The position numbers and the translations under genes are program-made. From NCBI RefSeq assembly GCF_017963645.1, contig NZ_JAGMWN010000002.1, forward strand, positions 62,001 through 126,000: 64,000 bases of DNA, written 5' to 3'. Source of the stretch: Marivibrio halodurans. Its GTDB lineage: Bacteria; Pseudomonadota; Alphaproteobacteria; UBA8366; Aestuariispiraceae. Under the pieces are notes generated by a model that was not told where the DNA came from, did no database searches, and was given only the letters and a program-made list of their open reading frames with translations. Below, piece by piece: positions 6,529 through 48,446 of the stretch (its first letter is position 1; each line of letters begins with the position of its first letter).

Positions 6529-7818
6529 ATGTCTTCCCTAAAAATCGCCATCGTCGGCAGCGGCCCAGCCGGCTGCTATGTCGCCGAGCGTCTCGGCCGC
6601 AAGGCCAAGGGCGCGGTGGAGGTCGATCTGTTCGACCGCCTGCCGACCCCTTTCGGCCTCGTCCGTTCGGGCGTGGCGCCGGATCATCAGACGACCAAGG
6701 CGGCCAATCGCGTGATGGCCAAGGCGTTGGAGAAGCCGGAGGTGCGCTTCCTCGGTAATGTCGCCATCGGTCGCGATCTGTCGCTGGACGATCTGCGCGC
6801 CGCCTATGACGCGGTGGTCCTGGCGACGGGCGCGGCGAGCGACCGACCGATGGGCGTGCCGGGCGAGGATTTGCCGGGTGTCATCGGCTCCGGCCGGTTC
6901 ACCCGCTGGTACAATGATCATCCCGACGCGGCGGCGGATGTGCCGGACCTGTCCACCGTGCGGCGCGTCGTCGTCGTCGGTAACGGCAATGTGGCGATCG
7001 ACGTCGCGCGGCTCTTCTCAAAGACGCCGGCGGAGTTGGAAGGCTCCGACCTTTCGCCGGAGGCGAGCCGCGCGCTTGCCGAGGCGCCGGTGGAGGAGAT
7101 CGTGATCGTCGGTCGGCGCGACGCGCTCAACGCCAAGTTCACGCCGACGGAGATCGGCGAGCTTGGCACGTTGGAAAATGCCGCCGTGCGGGTTCGCGCC
7201 GGGGACGTGGCGTCGGATGGGGAGGGCGCGCTCAATTCCCAAGCCTATGAGATACTGAAGGGCTATGCGGGCGAAACGCGCTCGGCGCCAATCACCATCC
7301 GCTTCGCCTTTCACCTTGAACCGGCGGCGGTCGTGGCGGGCGCGGACGGCCGGGTCGCGGCCATGCGTTTCCATAGAACCGAGGTTCGAGACGGTAAGGC
7401 CATGGCGACGCGGGAGACGGTCGATTTGCCCGCCGATCTGGTCGTGTCCTGCATCGGCTATGTCAGCGAGGACTGTGGTGCCGTGCCGACGACGGGCGGG
7501 CGGCTGGCGAACGAGGGCGGGCTGATCGAGCCCGGCCTCTATGTCGTCGGCTGGGCCAAGCGCGGCCCCAGCGGCACGATCGGCACCAATCGGCCGGAGG
7601 CGCACGGCGTTGCCGACCGTATCCTGGACGAGGTTTCGGCCGGGGACCGCCCCGGTCGCGCGGCGATCATCCCGCGCCTGGAGGAAGCGGGGCATGTCAC
7701 CGTCGATTTCGCGGCCTGGGGCCGTATCGACGCGGCGGAATCCGCCCGCGCCGGCGACGGACGCGTGCGGCACAAGTTCGCCGCGCTCGAGGATCTGCTG
7801 GCGGCGGCGCGCGGCTGA
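6529..7818 (+). CDS. Adrenodoxin/ferredoxin-NADP+ reductase-like flavoprotein (FprA type)
   Basis: FAD- and NADPH-binding reductase of 429 residues that would pass electrons from NADPH to a small carrier. The FAD Rossmann motif GSGPAG is at residues 10-15, followed by DRLPTPFGLVRSGVAPDH. The NADP-binding part contains VVVGNGNVAIDVARLF, and the C-terminal FAD motif is VGWAKRGPSGTIGTNRPEA; this order is that of adrenodoxin-reductase-type enzymes. It lies directly downstream of boxB and is likely its electron donor together with the flavodoxin at 1547-2011, replacing BoxA (inference). It has no iron-sulfur ferredoxin domain. Confidence 0.88.
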   Translation: MSSLKIAIVGSGPAGCYVAERLGRKAKGAVEVDLFDRLPTPFGLVRSGVAPDHQTTKAANRVMAKALEKPEVRFLGNVAIGRDLSLDDLRAAYDAVVLATGAASDRPMGVPGEDLPGVIGSGRFTRWYNDHPDAAADVPDLSTVRRVVVVGNGNVAIDVARLFSKTPAELEGSDLSPEASRALAEAPVEEIVIVGRRDALNAKFTPTEIGELGTLENAAVRVRAGDVASDGEGALNSQAYEILKGYAGETRSAPITIRFAFHLEPAAVVAGADGRVAAMRFHRTEVRDGKAMATRETVDLPADLVVSCIGYVSEDCGAVPTTGGRLANEGGLIEPGLYVVGWAKRGPSGTIGTNRPEAHGVADRILDEVSAGDRPGRAAIIPRLEEAGHVTVDFAAWGRIDAAESARAGDGRVRHKFAALEDLLAAARG

Positions 7819-17958: not shown

Positions 17959-18056
17959 GGAAGGCCGGACGGCGGGCGGGCGCCTCGCCAACCCGGTCAG
18001 GTCCGGAAGGAAGCAGCCGTAACGAGTTTCCGCCCGGGTCGTCGCTCCGGTCTTCC
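17959..18056 (+). ncRNA. ffs: 4.5S RNA of the signal recognition particle (small bacterial type)
   Basis: The conserved SRP core GTCAGGTCCGGAAGGAAGC and the following CAGCCGTAACGA are present at about 17997-18028. The ends GGAAGGCCGG and CCGGTCTTCC can pair to close a hairpin of about 98 nt. It lies just upstream of dnaX, the usual alphaproteobacterial position. Ends are estimated to within a few bases. Confidence 0.93.
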
Positions 18057-34169: not shown

Positions 34170-35459
34170 CTACTCCGCCGGGGTCGGCGCCGGACGCGGC
34201 CCGTCCAGACGGCGGACCAGCGTTTCGTTCCCCTGGTCGGGGTGGCGCGGGACCATCAGCGCCAGGATCAGCGACACGCACGCCATGGCCGAGCCGATAT
34301 AGAAGACCAGCCCCGGATCGTTCAGCCAGATGAAGCCGAAGGCCGCCGGGATGCCGACCGCGGCGATATGGTTGATGGTGAAGCTGACGCCGGCGGTGGA
34401 GGCGATGTCCTTCGGATCGGCGATCTTCTGGAAATAGGTCTTGATGGCGATCGCGAAGGCGAAGAACAGATGGTCGAGGATATAGAGCCCGGCCGCCCAA
34501 TATTGGTCTTCGACGATCGCGTATCCGGCGAAGATTCCGATCAGCCCGCAATATTCGAAAATCAGCGCCGCCCGTTCGCCCAGCCGCGCGATCAGCCGGC
34601 CGACATAGGGGGCGACAAAGATGTTGGCGATCAGATTGATCATGTAGAGCAGCGTGATCGCGCTCACGTCGTAGCCGAACTTCTCCACCATCAGGAAGGC
34701 GGCGAACACCATGAAGATCTGCCGCCGCGCCCCGCCCATGAAGGTGAGCGCGTAGTAGAGCCAATAGCGCCGACGCAGGAAGAGGCTCTTGGTTTGCATC
34801 TCCGGCGCCTCGAAGCGCGGGAAGTAGATCTTGCAGAAGACCGCGATCGCGAGCGTGAACAGACCCGCGCCGACATAGAGCGGCTCGTAACCGAGCGACA
34901 GGCCCCAGCCGTCCGTCGATATGCCGATCAGATCGCCCAGCAGCGTCAAAGGCTTGTCGTCGAAGGTCAGCATGATGACGATGAAGACGGCGAGCGTCCC
35001 GGCGGAAGCGGCCATTAGCTGCTTTGAGAGATGCTGGGCCGCGTGGCGTTTCTCCACCAGTTGCAGCGTCAGCGACTGGTTCATCGTTTCGTAATAGTGA
35101 TAGCCGACCGACATGATGAAGGTCGTCCCGTAGAACAGCAGTTCGCTCGGGAAATAGCCGGTGAGCGCCGTGCCGATGCCGAGTAGCGCCAGCGAGACGA
35201 AGGCCAGGTTCTGTTCGCGGATGAAGGGCAGCAGGAAGATCGCCGCGAAGCTCAGGAAACCGGGGATTTCCCTGATCGACTGAAGGAAGCCGATCTCCTT
35301 TCCGGTGAAGGCCGCGCGTTCGACCGCGAAGTTGTTCAGCAGCGCCATCCAGCCGTTCATGCTGACGGCCATGGCGCAGGCCATGATAACCAGCATCGTC
35401 TCGGGCCGGCGCAGGAGGGACGGGCGCTCGCTCGGCGCCGATTGGGTCATTGTCTTCAT
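34170..35459 (-). CDS. MFS transporter
   Basis: A 429-residue major facilitator protein with about twelve hydrophobic segments. It begins with a short cytoplasmic tail and a first helix at LVIMACAMAVSMNGWMALL. The stretch SIREIPGFLSFAAIFLLPFI corresponds to an early loop-helix. Substrate unknown. It is divergent from an AraC-type regulator whose start is 54 bp away, so that regulator may control it. Confidence 0.85.
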   Translation of the reverse strand: MKTMTQSAPSERPSLLRRPETMLVIMACAMAVSMNGWMALLNNFAVERAAFTGKEIGFLQSIREIPGFLSFAAIFLLPFIREQNLAFVSLALLGIGTALTGYFPSELLFYGTTFIMSVGYHYYETMNQSLTLQLVEKRHAAQHLSKQLMAASAGTLAVFIVIMLTFDDKPLTLLGDLIGISTDGWGLSLGYEPLYVGAGLFTLAIAVFCKIYFPRFEAPEMQTKSLFLRRRYWLYYALTFMGGARRQIFMVFAAFLMVEKFGYDVSAITLLYMINLIANIFVAPYVGRLIARLGERAALIFEYCGLIGIFAGYAIVEDQYWAAGLYILDHLFFAFAIAIKTYFQKIADPKDIASTAGVSFTINHIAAVGIPAAFGFIWLNDPGLVFYIGSAMACVSLILALMVPRHPDQGNETLVRRLDGPRPAPTPAE

Positions 35460-46330: not shown

Positions 46331-47014
46331 TTATTCGCCGGGAAAGGCGACCGTCACGATATTGCGTGCGATGCGGTTCGCGTCCCAGCGCGCGGGCGTG
46401 TCCGGCATCGGTGCCTCTGGGTCGGTGATGACGATCCCGTCGCCCGGCTCATCCAACGCGATGCTGCCGCCGGCCGTCTCGATCGACACCAACCCGTCGT
46501 CGAGCAGCACGACCGAGAGCGCGCGCCCATCCTGATAGCCCCAGAAGTCCGTGCCGCGAATGCCGATCGTCGCGATCGGGGTTTCCACCCGCATGCTTCC
46601 CTGCTTGCCGAGCGCGCCGGAAACCATGCGGAAGGCGCCGTGCATGACCGTCAGCGTGGCCGCGCCGACGCCGGTGTCGGGATCGTAGATCAGGCTGTCC
46701 AGACTGACCACCGCCGCTTCGCCCAGCGTCAGCACAGACCCGTCATCGAGCCGGATCGAGGCGCGGCCGGATGGGTCGGTACGCAGGCGTTCACCGGCGT
46801 GGACGGGTGCCTCGGCTTCCAGGTCCCGGCGCTCCGTCAACGTCTCCGCCCGGACAGCGGGGTGCAGCCGCGCGACCGTTCCGATGGCCGTGTCCTCCGC
46901 CGCCGCCCGCGGCAATGCCGGAAGGCAGGTCCCGATCAAAAGGGCGGCGGTCAGGCAGATGGCGCGCGGAAGCGCCGCGCGCGCCGCCGTCATTCGATTG
47001 CAGAATGCCCTCAT
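46331..47014 (-). CDS. FecR-domain secreted protein
   Basis: A 227-residue protein with a signal peptide (ALPRAICLTAALLIGTCLPA). The FecR domain is seen in GERLRTDPSGRASIRLDDGS and VETPIATIGIRGTDFWGY. No sigma factor is adjacent and it has no N-terminal anti-sigma helix, so it is a stand-alone periplasmic FecR protein, not an iron-transport regulator. I start at the ATG at 47014; the frame extends 29 codons further. Divergent from the riboswitch-controlled gene. Confidence 0.87.
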   Translation of the reverse strand: MRAFCNRMTAARAALPRAICLTAALLIGTCLPALPRAAAEDTAIGTVARLHPAVRAETLTERRDLEAEAPVHAGERLRTDPSGRASIRLDDGSVLTLGEAAVVSLDSLIYDPDTGVGAATLTVMHGAFRMVSGALGKQGSMRVETPIATIGIRGTDFWGYQDGRALSVVLLDDGLVSIETAGGSIALDEPGDGIVITDPEAPMPDTPARWDANRIARNIVTVAFPGE

Positions 47015-47342
47015 CGCGGAAATCCCCCCATAAAACGCTTGTCGATAAAACGTCCGAAAGACCGAAAATATCGCCCCACGGCGCCACATGCCCCCGGGCA
47101 TGCCCGCCGGTCAAGCGCCGATCGCGTTCGTGACCATGCTGTGACGCCAATCACTGACGCGCGGTACCCGGTTCCTGTTGACTGGTGGTATCGAGGCGAG
47201 GGCTGGCGCCCTCGACCCGAAAGGGCAAACCGCCGGAAACGGCGGGACGCAAAGTGACCGGCCTTAGGCCGGGCGCCCCGAAAAGAGGGGGAGGGCCCGG
47301 CGATGGCGGCGGCACTGCCGAAGGAAGAGGACGACCGCCGCG
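47015..47342. other. Gene-free stretch holding a GEMM-like riboswitch
   Basis: This 328-bp gap between divergent genes contains a hairpin CGAGGGC-TGG-type at about 47192-47214, the riboswitch-like element that follows, and a GC-rich leader before 47343. TTGACT at 47178-47183 could be a -35 box, but no matching -10 is clear. Confidence 0.5.
47213..47280 (+). promoter_or_regulatory. GEMM-like cyclic di-GMP-I riboswitch
   Basis: GGGCAAACC (47223-47231) precedes a stem CCGCCG-GAAA-CGGCGG with a GNRA loop, then GGGACGCAAAG (about 47243-47253) and the hairpin CCGGCC-TTA-GGCCGG. These conserved strings and their order are those of the class I c-di-GMP riboswitch, as in Vc2. The second stem is short and lacks an obvious tetraloop receptor. 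It lies about 65 bp before the ATG at 47343. GC-rich pairing downstream may be the expression platform. Confidence 0.65.
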
Positions 47343-47834
47343 ATGCGCGCCGAATATATCATCGCCGCCACCTTGATGGGTGCCGCGTTGGCCGTGCCGG
47401 CGGTCCTGGTGGGCGTGATGGGGGATGTGATTCCCGGCCTCTCCCTTGAGGGGCGCGCGCGCGGTAATGGCGAGGCCCCGGCCCTCACGCTTACCATTCC
47501 GCCGGTCATGGTTCCCGATGCGCGCGGTGTTCGGGGGGGCGCGCCCCGTACCGTGGTGGTGGAACTGGATCTGCGCGGCCGCGATGCGGCCGACCGCGTT
47601 TGCAAGGCACATCCCCGTCTGGCCGATCGGATTCTGGAGCATATGCAGGATGACGGGCGGGGGCCGACCGGCCCGCGTGGTAACGATACGCGCCTTGCCT
47701 GGTTGCTCGACCGGACGCTCGGGGCGGTCGAGATCGAACGCGCCGCGGTTGTCGAGAGCGATGACAAGCGCCCGCGCACCTATGACCGGCCGCTCTATCG
47801 CTGCAATCAGGGCAGCGCTTGGCCAATGCCGTAG
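47343..47834 (+). CDS. Small membrane-anchored protein, possible riboswitch target
   Basis: A 163-residue protein with one N-terminal hydrophobic segment (YIIAATLMGAALAVPAVLVG), then TVVVELDLRGRDAADRVCKA and RLADRILEHMQDDGRG. The layout (membrane anchor plus a VVELDL and later HPRLADRIL pattern) loosely recalls FliL-type proteins, but I cannot confirm the family. It follows the riboswitch-like element, suggesting a c-di-GMP-related role (inference). Intact frame. Confidence 0.65.
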   Translation: MRAEYIIAATLMGAALAVPAVLVGVMGDVIPGLSLEGRARGNGEAPALTLTIPPVMVPDARGVRGGAPRTVVVELDLRGRDAADRVCKAHPRLADRILEHMQDDGRGPTGPRGNDTRLAWLLDRTLGAVEIERAAVVESDDKRPRTYDRPLYRCNQGSAWPMP

Positions 47835-47951
47835 CCGACTGTCCGGTATGCCCGAATATCGCGGCCCCGGTGGGGCTCGACAGCGGCCGATCGTCCCGGC
47901 ATTGTTCCCCCTTCGATCCGCTTATCCCATGCCTCCACGGGACCGACGGCC

Positions 47952-48446
47952 ATGCCAGCCGATTCGACATATGCCGACGCGCCGTCGGGCGAGGGCGATC
48001 CCGCGCCCTTCGACGGGCGGCCGGCGGCTACCGGCGCGGTTACGCGCGGGACGACGCGCCTGTTCCGGGAGCGTGGCGAGGCCTGCTTGCTGGAGGTTAT
48101 CCTCAAGACCGGCCGGCGCGCCGATATCATGGCGCTCGACCGGTCCGGCGCGGTCACTATCCTGGAGGTGAAGTCGGGTGTCGAGGATTACCGTGCCGAC
48201 GGCAAGTGGCGGGACTATCTGCCCTTCTGCGACCGGTTCTATTTCGCGGTGCCGATCGGCTTCCCGGTCGAGATCCTGCCGGACGAGGTGGGGTTGGTGG
48301 TGGCGGACGCCTATGGGGCCTCGATTGAACGCCCGGCGGCCGAGGGCACGATGAACGCCAGCCGTCGCAAGGCCCTGATGCTGCGCTATGCCCGGCAGGC
48401 GGCCGAACGGCTGATGCGGATCGGCGATCCGTCGGCCGGGCTCTGA
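47952..48446 (+). CDS. mmcB: MmcB family DNA repair protein
   Basis: A 164-residue putative nuclease of the MmcB (DUF1052) family, linked in Caulobacter to mitomycin C resistance. It has ILKTGRRADIMALDRSGAV, VTILEVKSGVEDYRADGKW and FCDRFYFAVPIGFPVEILP; the D...ExK pattern resembles restriction-type nuclease centres. It lies 117 bp after the small membrane protein gene. Confidence 0.88.
   Translation: MPADSTYADAPSGEGDPAPFDGRPAATGAVTRGTTRLFRERGEACLLEVILKTGRRADIMALDRSGAVTILEVKSGVEDYRADGKWRDYLPFCDRFYFAVPIGFPVEILPDEVGLVVADAYGASIERPAAEGTMNASRRKALMLRYARQAAERLMRIGDPSAGL

Follow-up and report, generated by a model that had tools for sequence, protein, structure and literature searches.

A GEMM-I (c-di-GMP-I) riboswitch is paired with a gene for a diverged FliL-like membrane protein in Marivibrio halodurans and its family

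A structured RNA leader in Marivibrio halodurans stands directly before a gene for a membrane protein that carries no annotation, raising the question of which ligand the RNA senses, in which direction it acts and what the protein downstream does. We analysed a window of 64,000 nucleotides (contig NZ_JAGMWN010000002.1, positions 62,001 to 126,000; all coordinates below are positions within this window). The original prediction, made from the letters alone, was of a class I c-di-GMP riboswitch, and a covariance search supports it with a full-model match: cmscan places RF01051 (GEMM-I/c-di-GMP-I) at 47214-47322 (+) with 62.5 bits compared to a gathering score of 35, and with an E-value of 7.8e-10 when all 64 kb are searched with 4227 families. 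The match covers positions 1-87 of the 87 of the model without a marked non-standard pair in the displayed part, and it is the only one in the 4.18 Mb genome. Elsewhere in the window a Bacterial small SRP RNA is found at 17962-18056 (+) with 62.8 bits. The locus contains the following features:

47141-47154, no strand assigned: CRP-type palindrome GTGA-N6-TCAC, upstream of the leader
47197-47214, + strand: upstream hairpin CGAGGGC-UGGC-GCCCUCG, predicted by folding
47210-47219, + strand: P1 5' strand (CCUC 47210-47213, then CC and CG), predicted by folding
47214-47322, + strand: GEMM-I/c-di-GMP-I aptamer (RF01051), full-model covariance match
47224-47226, + strand: equivalents of Vc2 G20, G21 and C22, from the model alignment (numbering as in PMC7288161, mapping ours)
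47230-47245, + strand: P2 stem with GAAA tetraloop (47236-47239), from the sequence and the pairing in relatives
47253-47316, + strand: P3 with its insertion-bearing outer stem, from model alignment and folding
47253-47256 and 47313-47316, + strand: base of P3, AGUG paired with CACU
47262-47267 and 47302-47306, + strand: receptor-like internal loop CCUUAG/GAUGG inside P3, found by eye and by folding
47323-47330, + strand: Shine-Dalgarno-like GGAAGAGG, from folding
47343-47834, + strand: FliL-like single-pass protein of 163 aa, the presumed controlled gene, from the ORF, its homologues and a predicted model

The window RNA is a complete, ordinary GEMM-I aptamer of a known class. The strings GGGCAAACC (from 47223) and GGGACGCAAAG (from 47244), named beforehand as flanking a GAAA-capped stem, are present together with P2 at 47230-47245. 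A CCGGCC-TTA-GGCCGG hairpin had also been assigned to the riboswitch core; the string CCGGCCTTAGGCCGG exists, but the hairpin of the model is not made of it, its bases forming the 5' side of P3. The second stem, thought to be shortened, is in fact lengthened, as the outer part of P3 carries a 25-nt insertion and the 3' partner strand follows only ~20-50 nt further on. With all 87/87 model positions matched and P3 enlarged, the suggestion of a minimal, shortened aptamer is rejected. The GAAA tetraloop receptor has the sequence CCUAAG/UAUGG, and the CCUUAG/GAUGG loop in P3, two changes away from it, is one we take to be GAAA-receptor-like. In the family alignment a GAAA loop on P2 goes with CCU (4/4) and other GNRA loops go with CCC (7/7), a link that is weaker beyond the family (16/28 versus 14/54, Fisher p 0.008, 3 of the 85 cores being dropped from this count).

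The switch is conserved within the family of the organism (Aestuariispiraceae), whose genomes include Pacificispira spongiicola and a Hwanghaeella MAG placed there by the NCBI taxonomy. RF01051 is found in 11/14 family genomes, in single copy in each; at order level 14/43 genomes carry it, the three carriers outside the family having two to four copies. The statement that this type is not common in alphaproteobacteria was roughly right, given 33/385 sampled genomes of the class, yet the carriers are widely scattered. The proposed check for the same pairing in relatives gave a positive result for the P2 and P3 helices, the P1 columns being left out of the count: standard pairing is kept in 97.7% of 132 pair cells (12 pairs in 11 family sequences), and the three unpaired cells all belong to one P3 pair. 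Changes on both sides of a pair were seen in 7 cells compared to a shuffled mean of 1.6, with 0/500 shuffles as high. Counted by pairs, a double change occurs in 3, which is only weakly above chance (44/500 shuffles reach it), and the 7 further pair types are not above chance in these 11 sequences, as 422/500 shuffles reach that count.

Other GEMM-I loci of the class show further downstream genes, as observed in 83 unique alphaproteobacterial cores (85 less 2 with too short a downstream sequence; 11 of the 83 are of the family of the window, and the set is not a random sample). A ParA-type ATPase gene is a frequent neighbour: a ParA-type Walker A motif lies within 900 nt downstream of 16/83 cores by a motif-based assignment (L019, L025, L027, L031, L032, L033, L034, L035, L038, L042, L044, L092, L096, L118, L128 and L134), a Flp pilin-like gene follows 2 and a GDCEDFA-type cysteine peptidase-like gene 3, and 51 were left unclassified by their downstream gene. 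Two sister-family genomes contain pairs of GEMM-I matches on the same strand ~350 nt apart (G019:C648:7315-7423 and 7662-7763; G018:C416:1917-2023 and 2267-2370), which are possibly tandem switches.

The aptamer of the window is followed by the predicted 163-aa reading frame with one membrane segment; we confirmed the frame at 47343-47834 with a predicted N-terminal hydrophobic helix at residues 3-29 and found homologues. One and the same protein family, here termed A1, is encoded by the nearest conserved frame downstream of the aptamer in 11/11 switch loci. Its members comprise 154-183 aa as aligned, have one N-terminal hydrophobic segment and share the invariant residues P19, L50, C87, D95 and C154 in 12 aligned members, i.e. 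the 11 proteins of the switch loci and that of G003. An alternative start at ATG 47303 was rejected, as this codon lies within P3 (in GAUGG) and its reading frame is not that of the conserved protein. A profile of A1 finds the gene in 12/13 sampled family genomes, and it is present in G005, outside that sample, too. G003 and G006 keep the FliL-like gene without an RF01051 match. Downstream of the locus, G004 (L003 2192-2707) and G005 (L006 2159-2659) contain a second, more diverged FliL-like copy close by. An mmcB-like gene is located near the locus in 5/9 stretches read by eye, the one of the window being confirmed by Pfam, and a heptose kinase-like gene likewise in 5/9 by eye; these recurring neighbours fit vertical descent of one locus.

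We rejected a direct family annotation of the protein, as Pfam, NCBIfam and PDB sequence searches gave nothing firm. The window protein matches 0 Pfam families at E<=1, and none of the 12 family proteins matches the Pfam FliL family at E<=5; over all 12 members Pfam returns only DUF587 (2, best E 0.017), fvmX3 (0.21) and DUF7096 (1). NCBIfam returns two matches, one member each of the 12 hitting FliL NF005435 (E 0.073) and UpsB (E 0.1), and the PDB gave no sequence match at E<=5. In a genome search Pfam FliL (PF03748, cut-off 24.6 bits) weakly finds the G003 member with 12.1 bits and E 0.69, below the cut-off. The loosely FliL-like character ascribed to the protein is nevertheless borne out by profile comparison, by scanning 385 genomes with a profile and by predicted structures. 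Aligned with hhalign, A1 matches a second FliL-like family from the same genomes (A4) with E 3.8e-6 and a probability of 87%, and true FliL (A3) with E 5.5e-4 and a probability of 30%; the real scores of 41.4 (A4) and 29.8 (A3) are not reached by any of 100 column-shuffled profiles, the best of which score 22.9 and 21.0. When A1 was run over the 385 genomes sampled from the class, 10 had a match, namely four family genomes (of five sampled) and six outside the family. Of these six outside matches, five score 61.0 to 79.0 bits with Pfam FliL, above its cut-off, and for the sixth, L148, FliL is the only Pfam match, below the cut-off at 16.8 bits and E 0.01. A FliM N-terminal motif is found nearby in 4/6 and is absent near L148 and L151. 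At order level the sole match outside the family, L085, is of the FliL type, and a FliM-like frame comes after its gene.

The predicted structures point in the same direction. In the AlphaFold model of the window protein (mean pLDDT 74.6, 12 sequences) FliL entries rank top by VIA-align (Z 8.3, 8.3 and 7.9; rmsd 2.8-3.6 over 94 residues), stomatin being next with Z 6.5, and Foldseek gives FliL with E 0.1; the aligned FliL domain comprises residues 45-140. For the member from G012 (pLDDT 79.6) three FliL entries come first (Z 7.5, 7.5 and 7.2; rmsd 3.6-4.4 over 92-94 residues), followed by prohibitin with Z 6.3, and in plain Foldseek FliL is seventh with E 2.8. As VIA-align Z scores of 7-8 may reflect a common arrangement, we put the weight on the profile-profile comparison and the class-wide scan. 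Prediction thus supports a FliL/stomatin fold of the periplasmic domain, and together with the profile evidence this makes the protein a FliL relative that has diverged and carries two invariant cysteines. A true FliL over the Pfam cut-off is present in 14/14 family genomes, showing the riboswitch gene to be a diverged paralogue and not FliL itself; in the organism of the window the true fliL gene is on another contig before a FliM-like frame, and the window gene lies outside the flagellar operon. A further FliL-like protein, L066 (G000:C11:470849-471130), scores 21.0 bits with PF03748, below the cut-off, and aligns with L065, L069 and L070 of sister genomes.

According to PMC9195833, FliL surrounds the flagellar stator as a stomatin-like ring; for the paralogue we propose a role at the motor. 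It is quite possible, though, that the protein shares ancestry and fold with FliL and serves a non-flagellar membrane complex, such as a channel, a transporter, a pilus or an envelope protein, c-di-GMP control then reflecting surface life and not the motor. The position of the window gene between a FecR-domain gene and an MmcB-like gene, away from the flagellar operon, agrees with this, as do the SPFH domains of stomatin and prohibitin being the next structural matches, the distinctive pair of invariant cysteines, of which C154 lies beyond the aligned domain, and genome G009, which has a true FliL and neither the switch nor the FliL-like gene. Against it, FliL is the best Pfam match of all six outside-family proteins found by the profile, and FliL structures rank above the stomatins in both models.

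How the gene would be switched on is suggested by the palindrome upstream of the leader. Searched for within 220 nt upstream, it is perfect before 10/11 family switches and has one mismatch in G002, and its centre lies 51-81 nt before the aptamer in the 11 switch loci. Among the genomes without a switch, G006 has a perfect palindrome and the best site of G003 has two mismatches. Only one other perfect GTGA-N6-TCAC is present in the 64 kb window, at 34654, and the genome encodes four HTH_Crp_2 matches over the cut-off. In class II CRP-type promoters -10 hexamers are expected at such a distance, and by eye -10-like hexamers are similarly spaced from the palindrome in several loci (TATAGT in G013, TACTAT in G001); the locus of the window itself has no good -10 hexamer, and no sigma-70-like promoter was found there. 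A class II activated promoter would place the transcription start near 47189. The intergenic region with the palindrome is shared by a divergent gene for a FecR-domain protein (46331-47101, - strand; PF04773, E 8.8e-13), and by eye the congener G007 has a divergent FecR-like frame as well.

The direction of control was addressed by folding the leader. A hairpin at 47197-47214 competes with P1, as its 3' arm is the P1 5' strand. We compared this hairpin state with a state in which CCUC 47210-47213 pairs with GAGG 47327-47330, imposing P2 and the junction pairs in both; imposing CCUC:GAGG leads to pairing of GG 47323-47324, too. The ensemble energies of the hairpin and the CCUC:GAGG state are -91.7 and -88.7 for 47180-47360, -82.0 and -78.0 for 47190-47347, and -77.1 and -75.8 for 47197-47347, so that the hairpin is favoured by 3-4 kcal/mol in the two longer leaders and by 1.3 kcal/mol from 47197, a predicted gap that ligand binding could overcome. 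The mean unpaired probability of the Shine-Dalgarno sequence is 0.74-0.77 in the hairpin state versus 0.34 in the CCUC:GAGG state, and neither state of the longest leader leaves the start codon unpaired. A leader arm starting at ~47189 gives z -3.09, with 1.3% of shuffles as low.

Across the family the picture is mixed. Upstream hairpins are predicted in 9/11 leaders, G001 and G002 having none, and they beat shuffles (p<0.05) in 5/11, the one of the congener G007 doing no better than chance (p 0.41). The leader flanks, P1 included, prefer their own partner, with a summed duplex energy of -254 versus a permutation mean of -199 that 0/10,000 permutations bring to this level; for single loci the complementarity beats shuffles (p<0.05) in 4/11, the window having z -2.08. 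The P1-closing CG:CG pairs are possible in 11/11 leaders. Compared to free folding, imposing them alone lowers the unpaired Shine-Dalgarno fraction by >0.1 in 2/11 leaders (G007, G002), raises it by >0.1 in 2/11 (G005, G001) and changes little in 7/11, including the window (0.71 to 0.63), in which sequestration of the Shine-Dalgarno sequence needs the CCUC:GAGG pairs. As modelled, folding allows translational OFF control in the window and is not uniform across the 11 leaders. A transcription terminator platform was rejected, as a simple consensus scan found no terminator-like site within 46950-47960.

That the same aptamer acts as an ON switch appears somewhat unlikely; in this case c-di-GMP would raise the expression of the FliL-like protein, whose place of action would be sessile or surface-attached cells, e.g. 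in damping or rebuilding the motor. Both directions are known in the class according to PMC9262584, pilM being ON and Cd1 OFF; pairing of CCUC with GAGG opens the start codon in the window somewhat (AUG unpaired 0.49 versus 0.33, for 47190-47347), and P1 closure is predicted to free the Shine-Dalgarno sequence in the leaders of G005 and G001. This is opposed by the Shine-Dalgarno sequence of the window itself being able to serve as the P1 3' strand and by the scan returning no terminator-like site that the ligand could disarm. In PMC9262584 Vc2, the type member, is said to switch translation OFF, with P1 as the deciding element. This precedent, the folding of the window and the scan without a terminator-like site lead us to favour translational OFF control for the window despite the variation within the family, with a real chance of a different direction.

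The ligand was assessed from Vc2 position 20, the numbering following the contact list G14...G21 and C46-G50 given in PMC7288161. PMC9262584 treats the G20-equivalent position as a selectivity factor and not as a hard filter. The window has G at 47224 and not the A20 of the cGAMP type, from which c-di-GMP rather than cGAMP is expected, and we infer c-di-GMP as the ligand from this G20; the genome encodes 16 GGDEF matches. Sensing of 3',3'-cGAMP, another cyclic dinucleotide, is highly improbable, since, although the G20A change lets GEMM-I RNA bind cGAMP as reported in PMC7288161 and PMC6274999 and one family member (G001) has A at this position, G20 is present in the window, in 10/11 family members and in 85/86 unique GEMM-I cores compared. 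The G001 switch (L011 1501-1628) is the sole A20 case among the 86, yet the FliL-like gene behind it is the same as in the other family loci; this may be a natural change of ligand within an orthologous locus.

The explanation we prefer, tentatively and as a composite falling just short of an even chance, is that a c-di-GMP-I riboswitch turns off translation of a diverged FliL paralogue upon ligand binding, with a CRP/FNR-type promoter in front and a role of the protein at the stator. Transcription would probably start near 47189 from a CRP/FNR-type activated promoter. With c-di-GMP being scarce, the hairpin at 47197-47214 would form and occupy the P1 5' strand, leaving GGAAGAGG largely free and allowing the protein to be made. 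Binding of c-di-GMP to the P1/P2/P3 junction would close P1, pairing the GG and GAGG of the Shine-Dalgarno sequence with CC and CCUC and thereby reducing translation. The protein would be anchored in the inner membrane, present its predicted FliL/stomatin-fold domain to the periplasm and act at membrane complexes, most plausibly the flagellar stators, in motile cells with low c-di-GMP; both the OFF direction and the stator role are what we infer here. A more far-reaching variant, which we regard as unlikely, has the CRP-type promoter and the c-di-GMP riboswitch setting the level of a second, cysteine-clamped FliL-type ring protein that competes with or caps the stator FliL ring, resulting in family-wide stator tuning by translation.

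Compared to GEMM-I switches of the Vc2 type, the window shares the full covariance match, the conserved core, the GNRA-capped P2, G20 and a P1 close to the ribosome-binding site, and differs by the P3 insertion of 25 nt with its receptor-like CCUUAG/GAUGG loop, by the competing hairpin just upstream and by the dedicated FliL-like target. Cd1 of Clostridioides difficile belongs to the same c-di-GMP-I class and controls flagellar proteins; it is described in PMC9262584 as a transcriptional OFF switch with a terminator, whereas here the scan found no terminator-like site and the target is a FliL-like paralogue. With FliL (PF03748) the window protein has in common the single N-terminal membrane segment, the predicted periplasmic FliL/SPFH fold and a profile similarity resistant to shuffling, and it differs in scoring below the Pfam cut-off, in being encoded outside the flagellar operon behind a riboswitch, and in its two invariant cysteines and a C-terminal part beyond the FliL domain.

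What is new is the fixed pairing of the switch with a FliL-like paralogue in one family, with a conserved CRP-type site in front. In the literature on FliL, GEMM-I and c-di-GMP, as far as the titles and abstract openings of the matches listed go, no c-di-GMP riboswitch before a fliL-like gene is described, and one survey reports most of the GEMM-I regulon as being of no known function (PMC3766115). With one switch per carrier genome, always before this gene, c-di-GMP is linked to a protein of a stator-associated fold in a clean way that can be tested, and the hitherto unannotated protein family gains a candidate function. The conserved pairing suggests a direct route from c-di-GMP to the level of a motor-like membrane protein, and, if the motor role holds true, c-di-GMP would act on the motor through translation as well as through the protein effectors already known.
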